From contig NZ_NHSK01000074.1 in NCBI RefSeq assembly GCF_016653355.1, positions 132,178 through 196,177 on the forward strand: a stretch of 64,000 nt of DNA, given 5' to 3'. This stretch comes from Rhodoplanes elegans (lineage in GTDB: Bacteria > Pseudomonadota > Alphaproteobacteria > Rhizobiales > Xanthobacteraceae). Below the pieces are notes generated by a model that saw only the letters and a list, made by a program, of their open reading frames with translations, did no database searches and was not told the origin of the DNA. How positions within the stretch are numbered: position 1 is the stretch's first letter; the number at the start of each line of letters is the position of its first letter. Shown here in pieces: positions 1,461-39,911 of this stretch. Position numbers and translations under genes: made by a program.

Positions 1461-1693
1461 GCGAAGTGTGCGACATGCGCCACGCGAAGCTGATGCAGGA
1501 GCTTCGCCAGTCTGGCGTTACGATCGAGGACATCGCCCGGGCGTGGGCGTCGATCGACGGGAAGCGAGACGCCTTTGACGCAGAGAAGGGCAAGAGCGTG
1601 TCCGATGACATCACCGGCCACTATCTCGGCTATCTTTCAGAGGCCGAGGAGCTTGTGACCAGGGCCGCTAAGTACGCGCGCGAGCGGCGCTGA
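1457..1693 (+). CDS. Hypothetical 78-aa alpha-helical protein
   Basis: A 78-residue, mostly helical protein (MRHAKLMQELRQSGVTIEDIARAW..., ending KYARERR). Its start overlaps the upstream stop by 4 nt and follows GAGGAGGACAGGGG, a strong ribosome-binding site. It is the last plus-strand gene of the accessory block and converges on the HNH gene. The pattern of an 'LRQSGVTIEDIARAW' helix pair could be a small DNA-binding fold, but this is only suggestive. Confidence 0.55.
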   Translation: MSEVCDMRHAKLMQELRQSGVTIEDIARAWASIDGKRDAFDAEKGKSVSDDITGHYLGYLSEAEELVTRAAKYARERR

Positions 1694-6778: not shown

Positions 6779-6936
6779 CCCTCATGGTGAGGAGCGCTCC
6801 GCAGGAGCGCGTCTCGAACCATGTGGCCCCGACGCCGAGGCCGTCCTCGCCCTTCGAGACGGCTGCTTCGCAGCCTCCTCAGGGTGACGACGGAAGGCGG
6901 CGTGGATAGCCGGGACGAGCCCGGCCATGACGCGCG
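6779..6936 (+). repeat. Interspersed palindromic repeats (three units) inside the exporter operon
   Basis: Unit one (about 6779-6833) has a GCGCTCC/GGAGCGC hairpin flanked by GTGAGG and GTCTCGAACCATG. Unit two (about 6842-6892) is the same family in inverted orientation, with CTTCGAGAC, a GGCTGC/GCAGCC hairpin and CCTCAGGGTGA. Unit three (about 6902-6934) is half of another family (GTGGATAGCCGGGACGAGCCCGGCCATGACG written in parts), also present at 39217-39252. Such units are common between genes in Bradyrhizobium relatives. Confidence 0.8.
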
Positions 6937-29571: not shown

Positions 29572-31524
29572 TTACGCGCCCGCGGCCTCTGCCATCCGGG
29601 GCGGGACCGCCTCGCGCTGCGGCTGCATGAAGCCGTCGAAATACGCCGCCAGCGCCGCGTGGCCGTCGAGCGGCAGCACCTGCGCGACGTACTGGTCGGG
29701 CCGCACCACCACCATGCAGCCGGCGGCACGGTCGATGCCCCGCATGGCAAAGATGTCGTGCCCGCCCGTCCGGTGGTCGGCACAAAACACCTTCTCGTAG
29801 TCGCGTAAGCCGAGGCGGCCCTTGGTCGGCAGCAGCAGCGGCGGCAGTGTTCCGATGTCGAGCGTGCGGTGCGGCTCCTGGAACACCGCCCGCACGTCGA
29901 TGACGGCGTCGATGTCCTCGCCGTCGCGTGTGTAGCGGTGCACCGGCGAAACCGGGTCGTCGGCGAGCCACGCGCACAGCCACCGCACCGTCGAGGTTTC
30001 GGCGGACAGATCACCGGCCGGGGCGAAGATAAAAATCCGGAAGCGCCCGTCCGCCTCGATCACGTGGCCGAGATGCACGGGCTTCGCGTCGGCGAGCCGC
30101 ACCACGGGCGCCGAATGGAAGCGCGTTCCGACCACGAAACCGGTCGCGAGATGCTGGTGCCGCCCGTCGCCGGTCAGCAGCGCCGGCGCGTAGCGGGTCG
30201 CGGTGCCGGCCGTGTAGCGGCCGTGCGTGACGAAGTAGCGCCGCGTCGCCTCGGGGTCGACCTCGCGGCCGTCGGCATGTGCCGAGGCGAGCAGCGCGGC
30301 CCATTCGCGGTCGAAGTCGATCAGCTCCTTGGCGATGGCGCGCCGCTCGGCCGAGTAGGTGGCGAGCAGCCTCTCGGGGCTGCGCCCGCGCAGCACGGCG
30401 GCGAGCTTCCAGCCGAGATTGAAGGCGTCCTGCATGGAGACGTTCATGCCCTGGCCGGCCTTCGGGCTGTGGGTGTGGCAGGCGTCGCCGGCGATGAAGA
30501 CCCGGGGCGCGTGGGTCGCGGTCTCGGCCTCCGGCACGTCGTCGAACTTGTCGGTGAGTCGCTGGCCGATCTCGTAGACCGACCACCACGGCACCTCCTT
30601 CGGGTCGAGCCGATAAGGATGGAGGATGCGCTGCGCCTTGGCGATCAACGCGTCGAGCGGGATGTGGCGGGCCGCGACGCGTTCGCCGGCGTCGAGCGCC
30701 GTCAGCTCGACATAGAGCCGCACCAGATGGCCGCCCTCGCGCGGGATCACGATGATGCTGCCTTCGTGCGCCGACTGGATCAGCGCCTTGCAGCGGATGT
30801 CCGGAAAGTCCGTGACGGCGAGCAGATCCATCACGCCCCAGGCGTGGTTCGCCGAGTCTCCGACGAGCTCGCGTCCGATCGCGGCCCGCACGGCACTGCG
30901 CGCGCCGTCGCAGCCGACGACGTATCGCGCCCGCACGGTCTCGGTCGTCGTGTCGTTCGCCGGCTCGGTGCGCTCCAGCGTCACGGTGACGCCGTCGGCA
31001 TCGCGCACGAGCCCGACGACGCGCCGCGCGTAGAACGGCTCGAGCTTCGCCGCCGACTTGCGCATGCGCTCCAGATAGAAGTCGTGCACGCGCGCCTGGT
31101 TGAGCACGACGTGCGGAAACTCCGAGAGCCCGTCCTCGACGTCCTGCACGACGCCGCTGCGCGCGATCCTTTCGGGCGTCGCCGGGTCCGGGCGCCAGAA
31201 GGTCGTCTCGGTGATCCAGCACGCCTCCTTCAGCACCCGCTCGGCGAAGCCGAAGGCGTTGAACATCTCCATGGTGCGGCAGGCGATGCCGTCGGCCTGG
31301 CCGCGCCGCATCGGCTCGCTCTTCTGCTCGACGATGCAGGTTTTTATATCCGCGAAGGCGGCGAGCTGGGCCGCGAGCGTCAGCCCGGCCGGCCCGCAGC
31401 CGACGATCAGCACGTCGACCGACGCGGGGAGGGGTCCCTGCGCGCCGGCGAACGCGGGATAGCGATCCGCGGGATCGACAATCTCCGGATCGCCCGGCAC
31501 GAAGCCGTCCTGATGGAACTGCAT
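29572..31524 (-). CDS. mobA: 3-hydroxybenzoate 4-monooxygenase (FAD)
   Basis: A 650-residue flavoprotein hydroxylase converting 3-hydroxybenzoate to protocatechuate with NADPH and O2. It matches the MobA type of Comamonas in its start ([11 protein letters not shown]), its FAD site ([20 protein letters not shown]), the [27 protein letters not shown] block, the [16 protein letters not shown] second FAD motif and the C-terminal thioredoxin-like domain of phenol hydroxylases. GGGAGG lies upstream of the start. A MarR regulator is divergent, as in the mobA-mobR pair of Comamonas. No ring-cleavage genes are present in the window. Confidence 0.9.
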
Positions 31525-31599
31525 GCATCCTCCCGTCGGCGGACTTTTGTCTGTTGGCCGCCGTTGTCGTCCGCCGTCTTCGCCGTGCTCGTCCCACCC

Positions 31600-31680
31600 T
31601 CCGCTCATCCCCGCGAAAGCGGGGATCCAGGGCCATGGAGCGTGGAGCCTATGGGTCCCCGCCTTCGCGGGGACGAGCGG
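31600..31680 (+). repeat. Interspersed inverted repeat between mobA and its regulator
   Basis: The left arm CCGCTCATCCCCGCGAAAGC and the right arm GCCTTCGCGGGGACGAGCGG are imperfect complements; GGGGATCCAGGG and GGGTCCCC sit inside. The core is a common Rhizobiales intergenic palindrome. It lies between the mobA start and the MarR operator, in the promoter region of mobA. Confidence 0.8.
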
Positions 31681-31713
31681 AAATTGGGTGTTCGCGCGAC
31701 GACTGATATTGAT

Positions 31714-31738
31714 CAGCATACTGACGATCAGTATGCTG
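31714..31738 (+). promoter_or_regulatory. Perfect palindromic operator for the MarR regulator
   Basis: CAGCATACTGA (31714-31724), a CGA centre and TCAGTATGCTG (31728-31738) form a perfect 11-bp-arm palindrome. It sits 49 nt upstream of the marR ATG and within the shared regulatory region with mobA. MarR dimers bind palindromes of this size, so both genes are likely controlled from here. Confidence 0.8.
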
Positions 31739-31787
31739 TCAATCACGCGACACCCGACCGGACGCGACGTTCTCGAGCGAGGCCCGC

Positions 31788-32252
31788 ATGGAGGATCCCA
31801 AGAACATGCCCGGCCATCTGGCGCGGCGGTTCCAGCAGATCGCCGTCGCCTGCTTCGTCGCCGAGGTGGAGAAGGCGGGCTTCGATCTCACGCCGGTGCA
31901 ATACGCGGCGCTCGCCGCGATCGCCGCCCAGCCCGGAATCGATCAGATCGGGCTGGCCGGCCTGATCGCCTACGACCGCACCACCATCGGCGGCGTCGTC
32001 GACCGGCTGGTGCAGAAGGGTTTCGTGGTGCGCGAGGAGAGCCCGATCGACCGCCGCGCCCGCGTCCTCACCCTGACGCCGGCCGGCAAGACGACGCTGC
32101 GCGCCATCGGCCCGGCGGTCGCGGCGGCCCAGCGCACCATGCTGCGCGGCCTCGGCGCGCAGGAGCGCCGCGACCTCGTCCGCCTGCTGCAAAAGGCCGT
32201 CGCCGGCGGCAACGCGCTCAGCCGCGCCCCGCGGCGCGAGATGGCGGGGTAG
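31788..32252 (+). CDS. mobR: MarR-family repressor, probable MobR
   Basis: A 154-residue winged-helix regulator. MarR features: [52 protein letters not shown] (in parts), with the wing [14 protein letters not shown]. Placed divergently from mobA with a perfect palindrome between, it should repress mobA until 3-hydroxybenzoate binds, as described for MobR in Comamonas testosteroni. That assignment rests on context. ATG at 31806 is an alternative start. Confidence 0.85.
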
Positions 32253-32263
32253 GGCGGCGCGAA

Positions 32264-32395
32264 GCCGCCGTAGCCCGGCCGGAGCGAAGCGACGGCCGGG
32301 ACGGGCCTCGCCGGAGGAATCGGCCGGGGAAGGGTCGGGGACAAGCCGCGCCGTGGGCTCCCGGGTTTCGCAGGCTCAACCCGGGCTACGGGTTC
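32264..32395 (+). repeat. Interspersed repeat between marR and kdsA
   Basis: The left part has GTAGCCCGGCCGGAGCGAAG and the right part GGCTCAACCCGGGCTACGGG; both are forms of the GTAGCCCGG...CCGGGCTAC repeat family of Rhizobiales. The region also includes the smaller GGCGGCGC/GAAGCCGCC structure. No gene is visible in it. Confidence 0.7.
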
Positions 32396-32464
32396 CATAC
32401 GGGCACCGGTCGGATGCGGCGCGCCGTTGACCCGGCTCGCGGGGGGCGCCATGGTCCGCGCGCC

Positions 32465-33343
32465 ATGACCATGTCCGTCACATTCGCTCCCTCGTCCGTC
32501 GTCGCCGTCGGCCCGTCCGAGAACCCGGTCCGGTTCGGCAATGCGCTGCCGCTGGCGCTGATCGCCGGCCCCTGCCAGATGGAGAGCCGCGCCCACGCGC
32601 TGGAGACCGCGGCGGCCGTCAAGGAGATCGCCGGGCGCGCCGGGATCGCCGTGGTGTTCAAGGCCTCGTTCGACAAGGCGAACCGCACCAGCCTGACGGG
32701 CGCCCGCGGGGTCGGGCTCGACGCGGCACTGCCGGTCTTCGCCGAGATCCGCGAGACGCTCGGGATGCCGGTGCTCACCGACGTGCACGACGCCGGCCAG
32801 TGCGCGCCGGTCGCCGAGGTGGTCGACATCCTGCAGATTCCGGCGTTCCTGTGCCGGCAGACCGACCTCCTGGTCGCCGCGGCGCGGACCGGGCGGATCG
32901 TCAACGTCAAGAAGGGCCAGTTCCTGGCGCCCTGGGACATGGCGAACGTCGTCGCCAAGGTGACGGGCGCGGGCAATGCGAACGTGCTGGTGACCGAGCG
33001 CGGCGCCTCGTTCGGCTACAACACGCTGGTCTCCGACATGCGGGCGCTGCCGATCCTGGCGCGCACCGGGGCTCCCGTGATCTTCGACGCCACCCATTCG
33101 GTGCAGCAGCCGGGCGGGCAGGGGACGTCGTCGGGGGGAGACCGCGCCTTCGTGCCTGTGCTGGCGCGCGCCGCCGTCGCGGTCGGGGTCGCCGGCGTGT
33201 TCATCGAGACGCATCCGGACCCGGACCGGGCGCCGTCCGACGGCCCCAACATGGTACCGCTCGCCGATCTCGAGGCGCTCCTGTGCCGCCTGGTCGCCTT
33301 CGACCGCCTCGCCAAGGAGGCTCTCGCCGAACCGGGTGATTGA
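32465..33343 (+). CDS. kdsA: 3-deoxy-8-phosphooctulonate synthase (KDO-8-P synthase)
   Basis: A 292-residue enzyme condensing arabinose 5-phosphate and phosphoenolpyruvate for the lipopolysaccharide inner core. Family blocks: [71 protein letters not shown] and [21 protein letters not shown]. Cys in AGPCQ is the metal-type marker position. The start is weakly supported: no clear Shine-Dalgarno precedes ATG 32465, and a second ATG lies two codons on. Synteny with pyrG and eno is standard. Confidence 0.95.
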
Positions 33344-36702: not shown

Positions 36703-36795
36703 TCGCCGAACGTCCCACGTCGCGCCGCGACCCATCGTGATCGCGCATCGCCGCTCCGCTCTTGCGGCGGCGGCCCGGATCGTCCATCATTCCCT

Positions 36796-36874
36796 CACGG
36801 CCTGGGGTGCCGCGCAGGTGCGCGGCTGAGATCACACCCACTGAACCTGTCTGGGTCATTCCAGCGAAGGGAGC
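36796..36874 (+). promoter_or_regulatory. TPP riboswitch (THI element)
   Basis: The conserved thiamine-pyrophosphate aptamer: GGGGTGCC, an optional P3a hairpin (GCCGCGC AGGT GCGCGGC), GGCTGAGAT, ACCC, TGAACCTG, CTGGGTCATTCCAGCGAAGGGAG (given in parts). The terminal AAGGGAG is also the Shine-Dalgarno of thiO, 6 nt before the ATG, so ligand binding should directly block translation; there is no terminator in between. Confidence 0.96.
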
Positions 36875-36879
36875 CGCCG

Positions 36880-38079
36880 ATGGCAGCTGAATCACGTCCG
36901 TATTCTGAAACGAACGCCACGCGGGCGCGCGCGCCCGATCAGGCCCCGGCCCCCGATGTCGTGATCATCGGGGCCGGCGTCTGCGGGCTGGGCATCGCCT
37001 GGCGACTGGCGCAGCGCGGCCTCGCCGTCACGGTGCTCGACCAAGGCGCCCTCGGCGCCGCGGCGAGCTGGGTCGCCGGCGGCATGCTGGCCGCCTGCGC
37101 CGAGGCCGAGCCCGGCGAGGAGGAACTGGTCCGGCTCGGCCGGCATGCGCAGCGCCTGTGGCCCGGCTTCGCGACCGAGCTTCTGGAGGCGACCAGCATC
37201 GACGTCGATCTGCGCACCGAAGGCACCCTGGTGGTGGCGCCGACCGCCGACGAGCGCGCCCGTCTCCTCCATCATCACGCGTTCCAGACAGGCCTCGGCC
37301 TGACACTCGACTGGCTGACGCCGGCGGAGGTCCGCCGGCGCGAGCCGCATCTCGCAGCCGGGATCACCGGCGCGGTGTTCAGCCCGGAGGACCATCAGGT
37401 CGCGACCCGGTCGCTCACCACGGCGCTGATCCGCGCGGCCGAGCGGGCCGGCGTCACCCTGCGGCCGCACACCGCGGTCGCGCGCATCGTCGTCGAGAAC
37501 GGCCGCGCCACCGGCGTGGAGCTTTCCGACGGCACGCGCATCGCCGCCGGAACCGTGGTGCTGGCCGCCGGGGCCTGGTCGCGCGGCATCGAGGGGGTCG
37601 CCCCCGCCGCCCGCCCGCCGGTGCGGCCGATCAAGGGGCAGGTGATCGTCCTGAAGATGGATGCCGCCGCGCCGCTGCTGACTCACGTTCTCTGGGCGCC
37701 GGGTTGTTATCTGGTGCCGCGCCGCGACGGCCATCTGATCCTCGGCGCCACCGTCGAGGAGAAGGGCTTCGACACCGCGATCACGGCCGGCGGCATCTTC
37801 GCATTGCTGGAGGCCGCGTGGCGGGTGCTGCCGGCGATCGAGGAGCTGCCGATCGTCGACACGGTCGTAGGCCACCGGCCCGGCAGCCGCGACGACGCGC
37901 CGATCCTCGGCGCTTCGGAGGTGCCGGGGCTCGTCTACGCCACCGGCCACCACCGCAACGGCATCCTGCTGGCGCCCGTGACGGCCGACGCCGTCGCCCG
38001 GCTGGTGGCCGGCGAGGGGACCGATCCGGCGATCGCCGCGTTCGGCATGGAGCGGTTCGCGGCGAAAGCCGCGGCCTGA
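36880..38079 (+). CDS. thiO: Glycine oxidase ThiO
   Basis: A 399-residue FAD-dependent amine oxidase forming the dehydroglycine imine used for the thiazole of thiamine. The FAD site is VVIIGAGVCGLGIAWRLAQRG (in part; residues about 27-47), followed by GALGAAASWVAGGMLA and the C-terminal GHRPGSRDDAPILG and GHHRNGILLAP. First gene of the riboswitch-controlled operon thiO-thiS-thiG-thiE; thiC, which often precedes them, is not here. The ATG directly follows the aptamer. Confidence 0.95.
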   Translation: MAAESRPYSETNATRARAPDQAPAPDVVIIGAGVCGLGIAWRLAQRGLAVTVLDQGALGAAASWVAGGMLAACAEAEPGEEELVRLGRHAQRLWPGFATELLEATSIDVDLRTEGTLVVAPTADERARLLHHHAFQTGLGLTLDWLTPAEVRRREPHLAAGITGAVFSPEDHQVATRSLTTALIRAAERAGVTLRPHTAVARIVVENGRATGVELSDGTRIAAGTVVLAAGAWSRGIEGVAPAARPPVRPIKGQVIVLKMDAAAPLLTHVLWAPGCYLVPRRDGHLILGATVEEKGFDTAITAGGIFALLEAAWRVLPAIEELPIVDTVVGHRPGSRDDAPILGASEVPGLVYATGHHRNGILLAPVTADAVARLVAGEGTDPAIAAFGMERFAAKAAA

Positions 38080-38097: not shown

Positions 38098-39139
<1,042 letters not shown>

Positions 39140-39159
39140 ATGCTACCGCACCCGACGAG

Positions 39160-39252
39160 CCGTCATGCGCGGCCTTGTGCCGGGCATCCACGTCTCTCGG
39201 CCGCCGGTCATGGCGAAGACGTGGATGGCCGGGACGAGCCCGGCCATGACGG
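39160..39252 (+). repeat. Long imperfect inverted repeat inside the thi operon
   Basis: The left arm runs from CCGTCATGCGCGG to CATCCACGTCT (39160-39195) and the right arm from AGACGTGGATGG to GGCCATGACGG (39217-39252). The arms are imperfect inverted copies of about 36 nt around a 21-nt centre. Half of the same family is at about 6902-6934. The right arm contains the ATG of thiE at 39246. The element is a known type of Rhizobiales intergenic repeat; its spurious translation (RGLVPGIHV...) often appears as an extra N-terminus. Confidence 0.85.
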
Positions 39253-39911
39253 CGCTGAAGTCCCCCGACCGCCTGCCGGCACGGCTGCTGCTGGTCACCG
39301 ACCGGCGGCAGGCGGTGCGGCCGCTGGCCGAGATTCTTCAGGCGGCCTTCGCGGCCGGCTGCCGGTTCGCCAGCATTCGCGAGAAGGATCTCAGCGAACC
39401 CGCGCAAGTCGTCTTGACGAAAGAGTTATTGCCGATCGCCGAGCGGCACGGCGCGATCCTGGTGCTGCATGGACGGCCGGAGGTCGCGCGCGCCGCCGGC
39501 CTCACCGGCGTGCATCTACGCGGCGGGTCCGACCCGCGTCCGGCTCGCGACCTGTTCGGCCCGGTCGGGCTGATCGGCGTCTCGGTGCACGCGCCGGCCG
39601 AAGCGGGGCGGCTCGATCCCGACCTCGTTGCCTGGGCGATCGCCGGCCCGGCTTTCGCGACCGCCAGCAAGCCGGGCTACGGGCCGGCGCTCGGACCGGC
39701 GGGCGTCGGCGCGATCGCGGCGGCCTGCCCGGTGCCGGTCCTGGCGATCGGCGGCGTCACGGCCGAAGCCATCCCGGACCTGCTCGCCGCAGGGGCCGCC
39801 GGCGTCGCCGTGATGGGCGCCGTGATGCGGGCGGGCGACCCGGGCGCCGAGATCGAATCGCTGCTCGCCGCGCTGGCCGCGGCGGCGCCGGCTCAGCCGC
39901 GCCCCCGGTAG
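39246..39911 (+). CDS. thiE: Thiamine-phosphate synthase ThiE
   Basis: A 221-residue TIM-barrel enzyme coupling hydroxymethylpyrimidine diphosphate to thiazole phosphate. Features: [51 protein letters not shown] and [31 protein letters not shown] choose ATG 39246, giving MTALKSPDR before the conserved LLLVTDRR. Its start codon and upstream region lie inside the repeat. Longer starts would add repeat-encoded residues without family match. Its 3' end overlaps convergent queF by 19 nt. Confidence 0.88.

Follow-up and report, generated by a model that had tools for sequence, protein, structure and literature searches.

The start codon of the gene that follows thiG in the thi operon of Rhodoplanes elegans very likely lies inside a small dispersed repeat, which is almost certainly a head-to-head dimer of CGTC-tagged REPs. 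The insertion of this element, its repeat family, the available start codons, and two 4-nt overlaps of stop and start codons at the junction can be read directly from the DNA. From these features, we infer a relay in which translation would pass from thiG over a short bridging open reading frame (ORF) to the downstream gene, probably tenI; this proposal is tentative and, in our judgment, falls somewhat short of probable. Unless another locus is named, coordinates refer to the window, i.e., the complete stretch of 64,000 nucleotides that was analyzed.

The thi operon and the gene after thiG

The operon has the gene order thiO-thiS-thiG-TMP-TENI family gene, with a TPP riboswitch at its head (Table 1). 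The first ATG of thiO (36880) falls within the 3' end of the TPP aptamer (36792 to 36889), an overlap that suggests control at the level of translation. The 3' ends of the TMP-TENI gene and the convergent queF overlap by 19 nt (39893 to 39911).

Table 1. Features of the thi operon and of the thiG-tenI junction in the window
Feature	Position	Strand	Basis
TPP riboswitch aptamer heading the thi operon	36792..36889	+	Rfam RF00059, 55.3 bits (gathering score 54.3)
thiO (glycine oxidase)	36880..38079	+	NCBIfam TIGR02352, 344 bits (cutoff 250.8)
thiS	38098..38352	+	TIGR01683, 57.3 bits (cutoff 37.45)
thiG, stop codon TGA 39137-39139	38354..39139	+	Pfam PF05690, E 6.5e-105
GTGA: GTG overlapping the thiG stop, start position of the next gene in relatives	39136..39139	+	
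Proposed bridging ORF, 37 codons plus stop, ending with TGA 39247-39249	39136..39249	+	Translation inferred
Left CGTC-REP unit: 9-bp stem with one G.G mismatch, loop CTTGT, tail CCA	39161..39192	+	Alignment; family features from PMC3733652
Variable spacer between the REP units	39193..39219	+	Alignment of family copies
Right CGTC-REP unit, inverted: perfect 9-bp stem, loop CTCGT, tail CCA	39220..39251	-	Alignment, genome matches
ATGA in the repeat end, in which the putative start of the downstream gene and the bridging ORF stop overlap	39246..39249	+	
TMP-TENI family gene, probably tenI	39246..39911	+	PF02581, 126.8 bits for the 39165 form; alignment

The name thiE, under which the downstream gene had been introduced in the preliminary description, is doubtful, since its active-site motifs point to tenI, though the overall scores lean toward ThiE. 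QLRxK, ND, and (E/D)D are the active-site motifs of ThiE (thiamine phosphate synthase). Each of five Rhodoplanes genomes, i.e., the source and G001 to G004, encodes three TMP-TENI proteins, which were aligned except for the third paralogue of the source genome (L182), for which no match was obtained. In all five genomes, the operon copy combines REK with LHGR or LHGD and lacks an ED/DD acidic pair, as in B. subtilis TenI (1yad), and the QLRxK, ND, and (E/D)D pattern is absent as a set; the acidic residues missing from this copy bind metal in ThiE. Another copy in the same genomes carries QLRDK, NDRVDV, and GPDDM throughout (5/5) and, in the source genome, adjoins genes read from their translations as thiM and thiD. 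TenI enzymes have the TMP-TENI fold with NGR and LPSGS-like motifs and are encoded in thiazole operons; the HGR, RGGS/PAGS, and SVH motifs of the operon gene match 1yad. Its best NCBIfam match is TIGR00693 thiE, with 106.9 bits below the cutoff of 145.1, and its best PDB match is 3o63, a pyrophosphorylase, with 1yad in third place; NF005819 TenI scored 73.6 against a cutoff of 251. Judged by its motifs, the operon gene is probably tenI, encoding a thiazole tautomerase, rather than thiE.

A CGTC-REP dimer between thiG and tenI

The inverted repeat of about 93 nt that had been reported for this junction is confirmed by its arms, its copy number, and a fold beyond chance. The arms (39159 to 39195 and 39217 to 39253) are 37 nt long, 84% complementary, and 21 nt apart, and the repeat measures 95 nt from end to end, 93 nt if taken as CCGTCATG..CATGACGG, and 91 nt as the family core CGTCATG..CATGACG (39161 to 39251). 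For the junction RNA (39120 to 39290), the predicted folding energy is -94.4 kcal/mol (z = -4.07), and none of 200 shuffles was as stable. The alignment of 42 places in loci of the same genome resolved the element into two inverted palindromes of 32 nt (typically CGTCATGCCCGGCCTTGTGCCGGGCATCCACG and CGTGGATGGCCGGGACGAGCCCGGCCATGACG) separated by a spacer that varies; both units carry an unpaired terminal CGTC tag that reads inwards, and these ends recur in nearly all of the aligned places. At the thiG junction, the right unit, with its perfect stem, reads ATGGCCGGG-CTCGT-CCCGGCCAT-CCA, and the left unit, with one G.G mismatch, reads ATGCGCGGC-CTTGT-GCCGGGCAT-CCA.

The element shows features of CGTC-REPs, i.e., stems of 8 to 9 bp beginning with AT, loops of 4 to 5 nt, CCA tails, and a multicopy, intergenic occurrence, predominantly as head-to-head dimers. 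With at most two mismatches, the right unit has 120 matches in the 6.54-Mb genome, compared with 0 for the pattern read backwards, and the 40 of 195 candidate family members in this genome that were scored were all significant. Matches occur in all six genomes of the genus Rhodoplanes that were examined, with few in G002 (3) and in the incomplete G005 (1). Elsewhere in the window, a second, half copy consists of a right unit (6901 to 6932, one mismatch to the search pattern), and a different inverted repeat (31593 to 31688, 37-nt arms, 84% complementary) lies in the 5' part of a long ORF (31523 to 33343).

As an inverted REP pair of about 90 nt in many copies, the element resembles REPIN/RAYT systems, but its tag is CGTC rather than GTAG, and the Y1 domain exceeded the cutoff in only one of five Rhodoplanes genomes. 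In this profile search, Y1_Tnp (PF01797) was the only transposase domain considered; it was found over the cutoff in G004 and below the threshold in the source genome, with no match in G001 to G003. A RAYT as the mobilizer of the element is not supported by this distribution. The subthreshold Y1_Tnp (RAYT-like) match is located in a 225-codon open frame beside the window (G000:C74:202627-202962).

Empty sites and the gene overlap in relatives

The thiG stop codon is overlapped by the GTG start of the following gene (ACGTGA) in R. tepidamans DSM 9987 (G001) and the Cfx2-03 MAG, which share the genus with the source, and also in more distant relatives; the element is missing from the thiG junction of four other Rhodoplanes genomes. 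Among 80 named thiG loci, 40 are without a TMP-TENI gene within 1.5 kb, and the other 40 comprise 20 with a 4-nt overlap, 1 with a 1-nt overlap, and 19 with other arrangements. From a set of 153 loci, 52 distinct junctions were retained after the removal of 39 loci without a tenI-like match, 17 without thiG, 8 with thiG below 60% or without its C terminus, 5 without tenI within 1.2 kb downstream, and 32 duplicate junctions. Direct 4-nt overlaps, mostly GTGA, account for 22 of these junctions and a direct 1-nt overlap for 1; another 10 have NTGA and a displaced start, and 19 lack NTGA at the thiG stop and manage without coupling by overlap.

The empty state is not confined to this junction. For 16 of the 83 element sites in loci of the source genome, the G001 stretches examined include orthologous flanks, and 13 of the 16, including the thiG-tenI junction, contain no unit according to the search pattern; two of the 13 (L155 and L160) show an uninterrupted alignment and may contain a degenerate copy. 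A target-site duplication and the exact borders were not discernible, since filled sites and empty G001 sites align poorly at the edges beyond the 91-nt core. The element begins 21 nt after the thiG stop; a 15-nt rule for REPs near stop codons is cited in a passage of PMC5082802. The junction of G003, GGCCATGAC, was considered as a remnant of the same element, but shared ancestry is not favored, as the direct overlap is kept in G001 and G004.

A probable start codon in the repeat end

The repeat between thiG and the next gene had been claimed to supply the start codon of the latter, and the sequence bears this out: ATG 39246 to 39248 is located in the right end of the element, GGCCATGACGG, in frame with the gene. 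Further starts of this frame inside the element are 39165, 39177, 39210, and 39225. The frame contains no ATG, GTG, or TTG upstream of the element, and downstream the first such codon is not reached until GTG 39315, within the conserved core; any standard start is therefore confined to the element. Among the five codons, ATG 39246 is the likely one. It would place 13 residues before the core LLLVTDRR, compared with 3 to 11 in relatives with a direct overlap. The comparison with relatives lacking the repeat, which the preliminary description had suggested, left the start codon claim standing, as the exact leader is absent from them.

Within the fetched stretches of the same genome, 144 distinct unit ends were associated with seven open, coding-like frames of at least 60 codons. 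Six of these have another in-frame start 4 to 17 codons further on, and the gene downstream of thiG is alone among the seven in having no other in-frame start before its conserved core.

A bridging reading frame and a proposed relay

We propose that a CGTC-REP dimer inserted between thiG and tenI in the lineage leading to this Rhodoplanes species. tenI would thereby have lost its ancestral GTG start, which shared nucleotides with the thiG stop codon, and come into frame with the ATG found at the end of every intact unit of this type (CATGACG), making 39246 the new start. In the unit end, ATG and TGA overlap (ATGA), and the old GTG frame through the element stops exactly there. The likeliest route of translation would then consist of two successive termination-reinitiation steps, i.e., from the thiG stop and GTG into the bridging ORF, through the hairpin, and from its TGA and ATG into tenI.

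GTG 39136 has survived, and its frame crosses the element over 37 codons and ends with TGA 39247 to 39249, which overlaps ATG 39246; a 4-nt stop/start overlap is thus found twice, at GTGA (39136 to 39139) and ATGA (39246 to 39249). Without the bridge, 106 nt lie between the thiG stop and ATG 39246. In data given in part of PMC10666635, a distance of about 20 nt almost abolishes coupling, and at 38 nt the loss is 80 to 90% for two E. coli pairs and complete for another. With GTGA preserved and ATGA located at the repeat end, the genes could remain coupled, and weaker expression of tenI is possible. From this arrangement of codons, we infer that 39246 is used, that the bridging ORF is translated, and that the genes are coupled. 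Independence of the downstream gene from the rest of the operon, which had been suggested earlier, is not supported, since a search for sigma-70 and U-tract consensus sequences detected no promoter- or terminator-like site at 39050 to 39350.

Comparable arrangements exist at other junctions. Among the 10 junctions that combine NTGA with a displaced start, five end the NTG frame in a 4-nt overlap with an in-frame start (the window, G003, G002, L042, and L322), in two (L306 and L310) the frame stops 1 nt before the start, and three (L011, L099, and L340) show no relay. The bridging frames comprise 5 codons in both G003 and L042, 24 in L322, and 109 in G002, where a 322-nt insert holding another repeat is crossed. 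In G101 of genus g68 (L310, 1399 to 1483), the thiG-tenI junction carries a CGTC-REP-like dimer of its own, and the bridging frame ends 1 nt before the ATG; this dimer is multicopy, with 49 matches (40 of 102 candidates scored). The shortened dimer in a sister species (G072, L306, 1433 to 1483) looks like the same insertion after an in-frame loss of 72 nt, and G122 (L313), also of genus g68, has the direct overlap.

When L306 and L310, which are related, are counted once, five of nine junctions are strict relays, compared with 1.2 expected from dinucleotide shuffles of the spacers (P = 4.8e-4) and with an empirical background of 29/200 (P = 4.8e-3), the criterion having been formed on the window itself and the +1-nt class having been added after L306 and L310 were seen. 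Without the window, the count is 4/8 (P = 1.5e-3 for shuffles and 0.019 for the background of 29/200). Taken by itself, the window would show a relay by chance with a probability of about 0.32 (shuffles), and the bridging frame is open in 28 of the 33 element copies with full ends.

A second locus emerged when the same form was sought among the seven coding-like cases. On contig C102 of the source genome (L161, about 1507 to 1617, minus strand), a REP dimer lies between genes for an AAA ATPase and VWA_CoxE, with GTGA ... ATGA and a bridging frame of 37 codons; in the source genome, the gene at this locus also has a GTG beyond the element, 12 nt into the coding region. R. tepidamans and G004 carry different inserts at this locus, and their frames of 62 and 75 codons, respectively, again lead from GTGA to a 4-nt overlap. 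Of seven AAA/VWA_CoxE loci, the three with NTGA all show the relay, three (L358, L359, and L360) are without NTGA, and one (L357) is without the upstream gene. The corresponding shuffle chances are 0.33 in the source genome, 0.31 in G001, and 0.21 in G004.

The relay is not supported as a general genome-wide rule. With an unvalidated gene caller applied to about 0.82 Mb of G001, the window, and the adjoining 9.8 kb, relay-like ends were found in 18/92 NTGA pairs versus 29/200 pairs without NTGA, i.e., there was no general enrichment (P = 0.18); CTGA alone gave 21/152 (P = 0.16), and relay-like ends arise by chance in about 15% of cases. Overall, the comparisons suggest a junction-specific effect and lend moderate support to the relay.

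Alternative routes to tenI translation

It is rather unlikely that the element supplies the start, ribosomes enter anew, and the long hairpin merely lowers or uncouples tenI expression. Such fresh entry would fit the stable fold (-94.4 kcal/mol, z = -4.07), which holds ATG 39246 in a stem, the distance of 106 nt, far beyond the coupling range in part of PMC10666635, and the absence of a Shine-Dalgarno-like GGAGG or GAGG from the 20 nt before 39246. However, the lack of a ribosome site itself makes entry anew unlikely, the gene is intact with a dN/dS of 0.24 relative to R. tepidamans, and related starts without the element are as hard to open. The burial of the start in a hairpin, mentioned in the preliminary description, is in fact not distinctive: the predicted opening cost is 24.1 kcal/mol at 39246 versus 14.9 to 31.9 kcal/mol in element-free relatives, i.e., 31.9 in R. 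tepidamans, 26.7 in G004, 27.7 in G003, 15.0 in G002, and 14.9 to 22.4 in seven other relatives with a direct overlap. For the starts of thiO, thiS, and thiG, the predicted cost is 10.4 to 13.1 kcal/mol. By these predictions, the start of this gene has thus always been difficult to access, in keeping with a gene that relied on coupling.

A start in the left arm (39165 or 39177), by which the element would encode an N-terminal extension like those from Rickettsia palindromic elements, is unlikely. In-frame insertions of this type are described in passages of PMC10969869 and PMC3733652, and from 39165 onward the element contains no stop codon in this frame; however, the frame is open in 31 of the 33 copies with full ends, and its openness is therefore no evidence for an extension. 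Moreover, 39165 is located 25 nt from the thiG stop in a stem, with no visible ribosome site, and would place 40 residues before the conserved core instead of the 3 to 11 in direct-overlap relatives. Finally, that the insertion nearly silenced a dispensable tenI now on its way out, the reaction being nonessential or paralogues substituting, is very unlikely, since the frame is intact at a dN/dS of 0.24 and the two paralogues are of other types and present in four relatives too, although the genome has three TMP-TENI genes and residue changes, ThiG-specific ones aside, are slightly more numerous on the source branch than on the R. tepidamans branch (15 versus 9 and 11 versus 5), an excess that could reflect relaxed constraint.

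Relation to known repeats and coupled genes

The element shares with the CGTC-REPs of Di Nocera et al. 2013 (PMC3733652, in part) the CGTC tag, 9-bp stems beginning with AT, 5-nt loops, CCA tails, the organization as a head-to-head heterodimer, an alphaproteobacterial host, and a mostly intergenic location. The CGTC-REPs lack a clear dedicated transposase; for the present family, Y1_Tnp, the one domain sought, exceeded the cutoff in G004 only. The same sections report that GTAG-REP ends give TAG stop codons and that N-terminal REPs were mostly judged to be misannotations; they do not describe start codons or ATGA overlaps contributed by a CGTC end. Rickettsia palindromic elements, two types of which are CGTC REPs (PMC3733652, in part), are likewise alphaproteobacterial palindromic repeats that merge with genes, but according to passages of PMC10969869 and PMC3733652, they add in-frame internal or terminal peptide segments, whereas here the start codon lies at the very edge of the repeat.

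Element-supplied gene starts have already been published for MITEAba12 of Acinetobacter (PMC6382973, in part), a small nonautonomous element whose outward end gives the start and the first residues (MQQS) of neighboring genes, and the relay would be an added, unproven twist. MITEAba12 differs in being IS-derived, with TIRs, 9-bp TSDs, and a putative outward promoter, and restoration of a 4-nt gene overlap is not described in the passages considered. The proposed relay has a 4-nt overlap at each of its two junctions, of the kind tested for termination-reinitiation at overlapping gene pairs (Huber 2019, PMC6728339, and Huber 2023, PMC10666635, both in part); the relay differs from these pairs in taking two steps, via a nonconserved bridging ORF that an inserted repeat has created. 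In the open-access literature searched, no description of a bridging ORF arising from a REP was found.

Implications

In R. elegans, the thiG-tenI junction offers a clear natural example of a metabolic gene whose translation very likely now initiates within a REP dimer, and the corresponding sites in sister species are empty. For annotation, the gene after thiG in these genomes should probably be called tenI, not thiE. It is conceivable, yet doubtful, that repeats in 4-nt-overlap junctions survive where a bridging ORF begins at the old start and its end forms a new 4-nt overlap, coupling thus being rebuilt in two steps, and that CGTC-REP dimers are suited for this by a ready-made ATGA at each end. 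If such rebuilding holds true, the thiG-tenI and AAA-VWA junctions of Rhodoplanes and its relatives are natural experiments. If the relay is true, it would provide a simple rule for the repeat insertions that are tolerable in coupled operons and a function for the ATGA built into the ends of CGTC-REPs.
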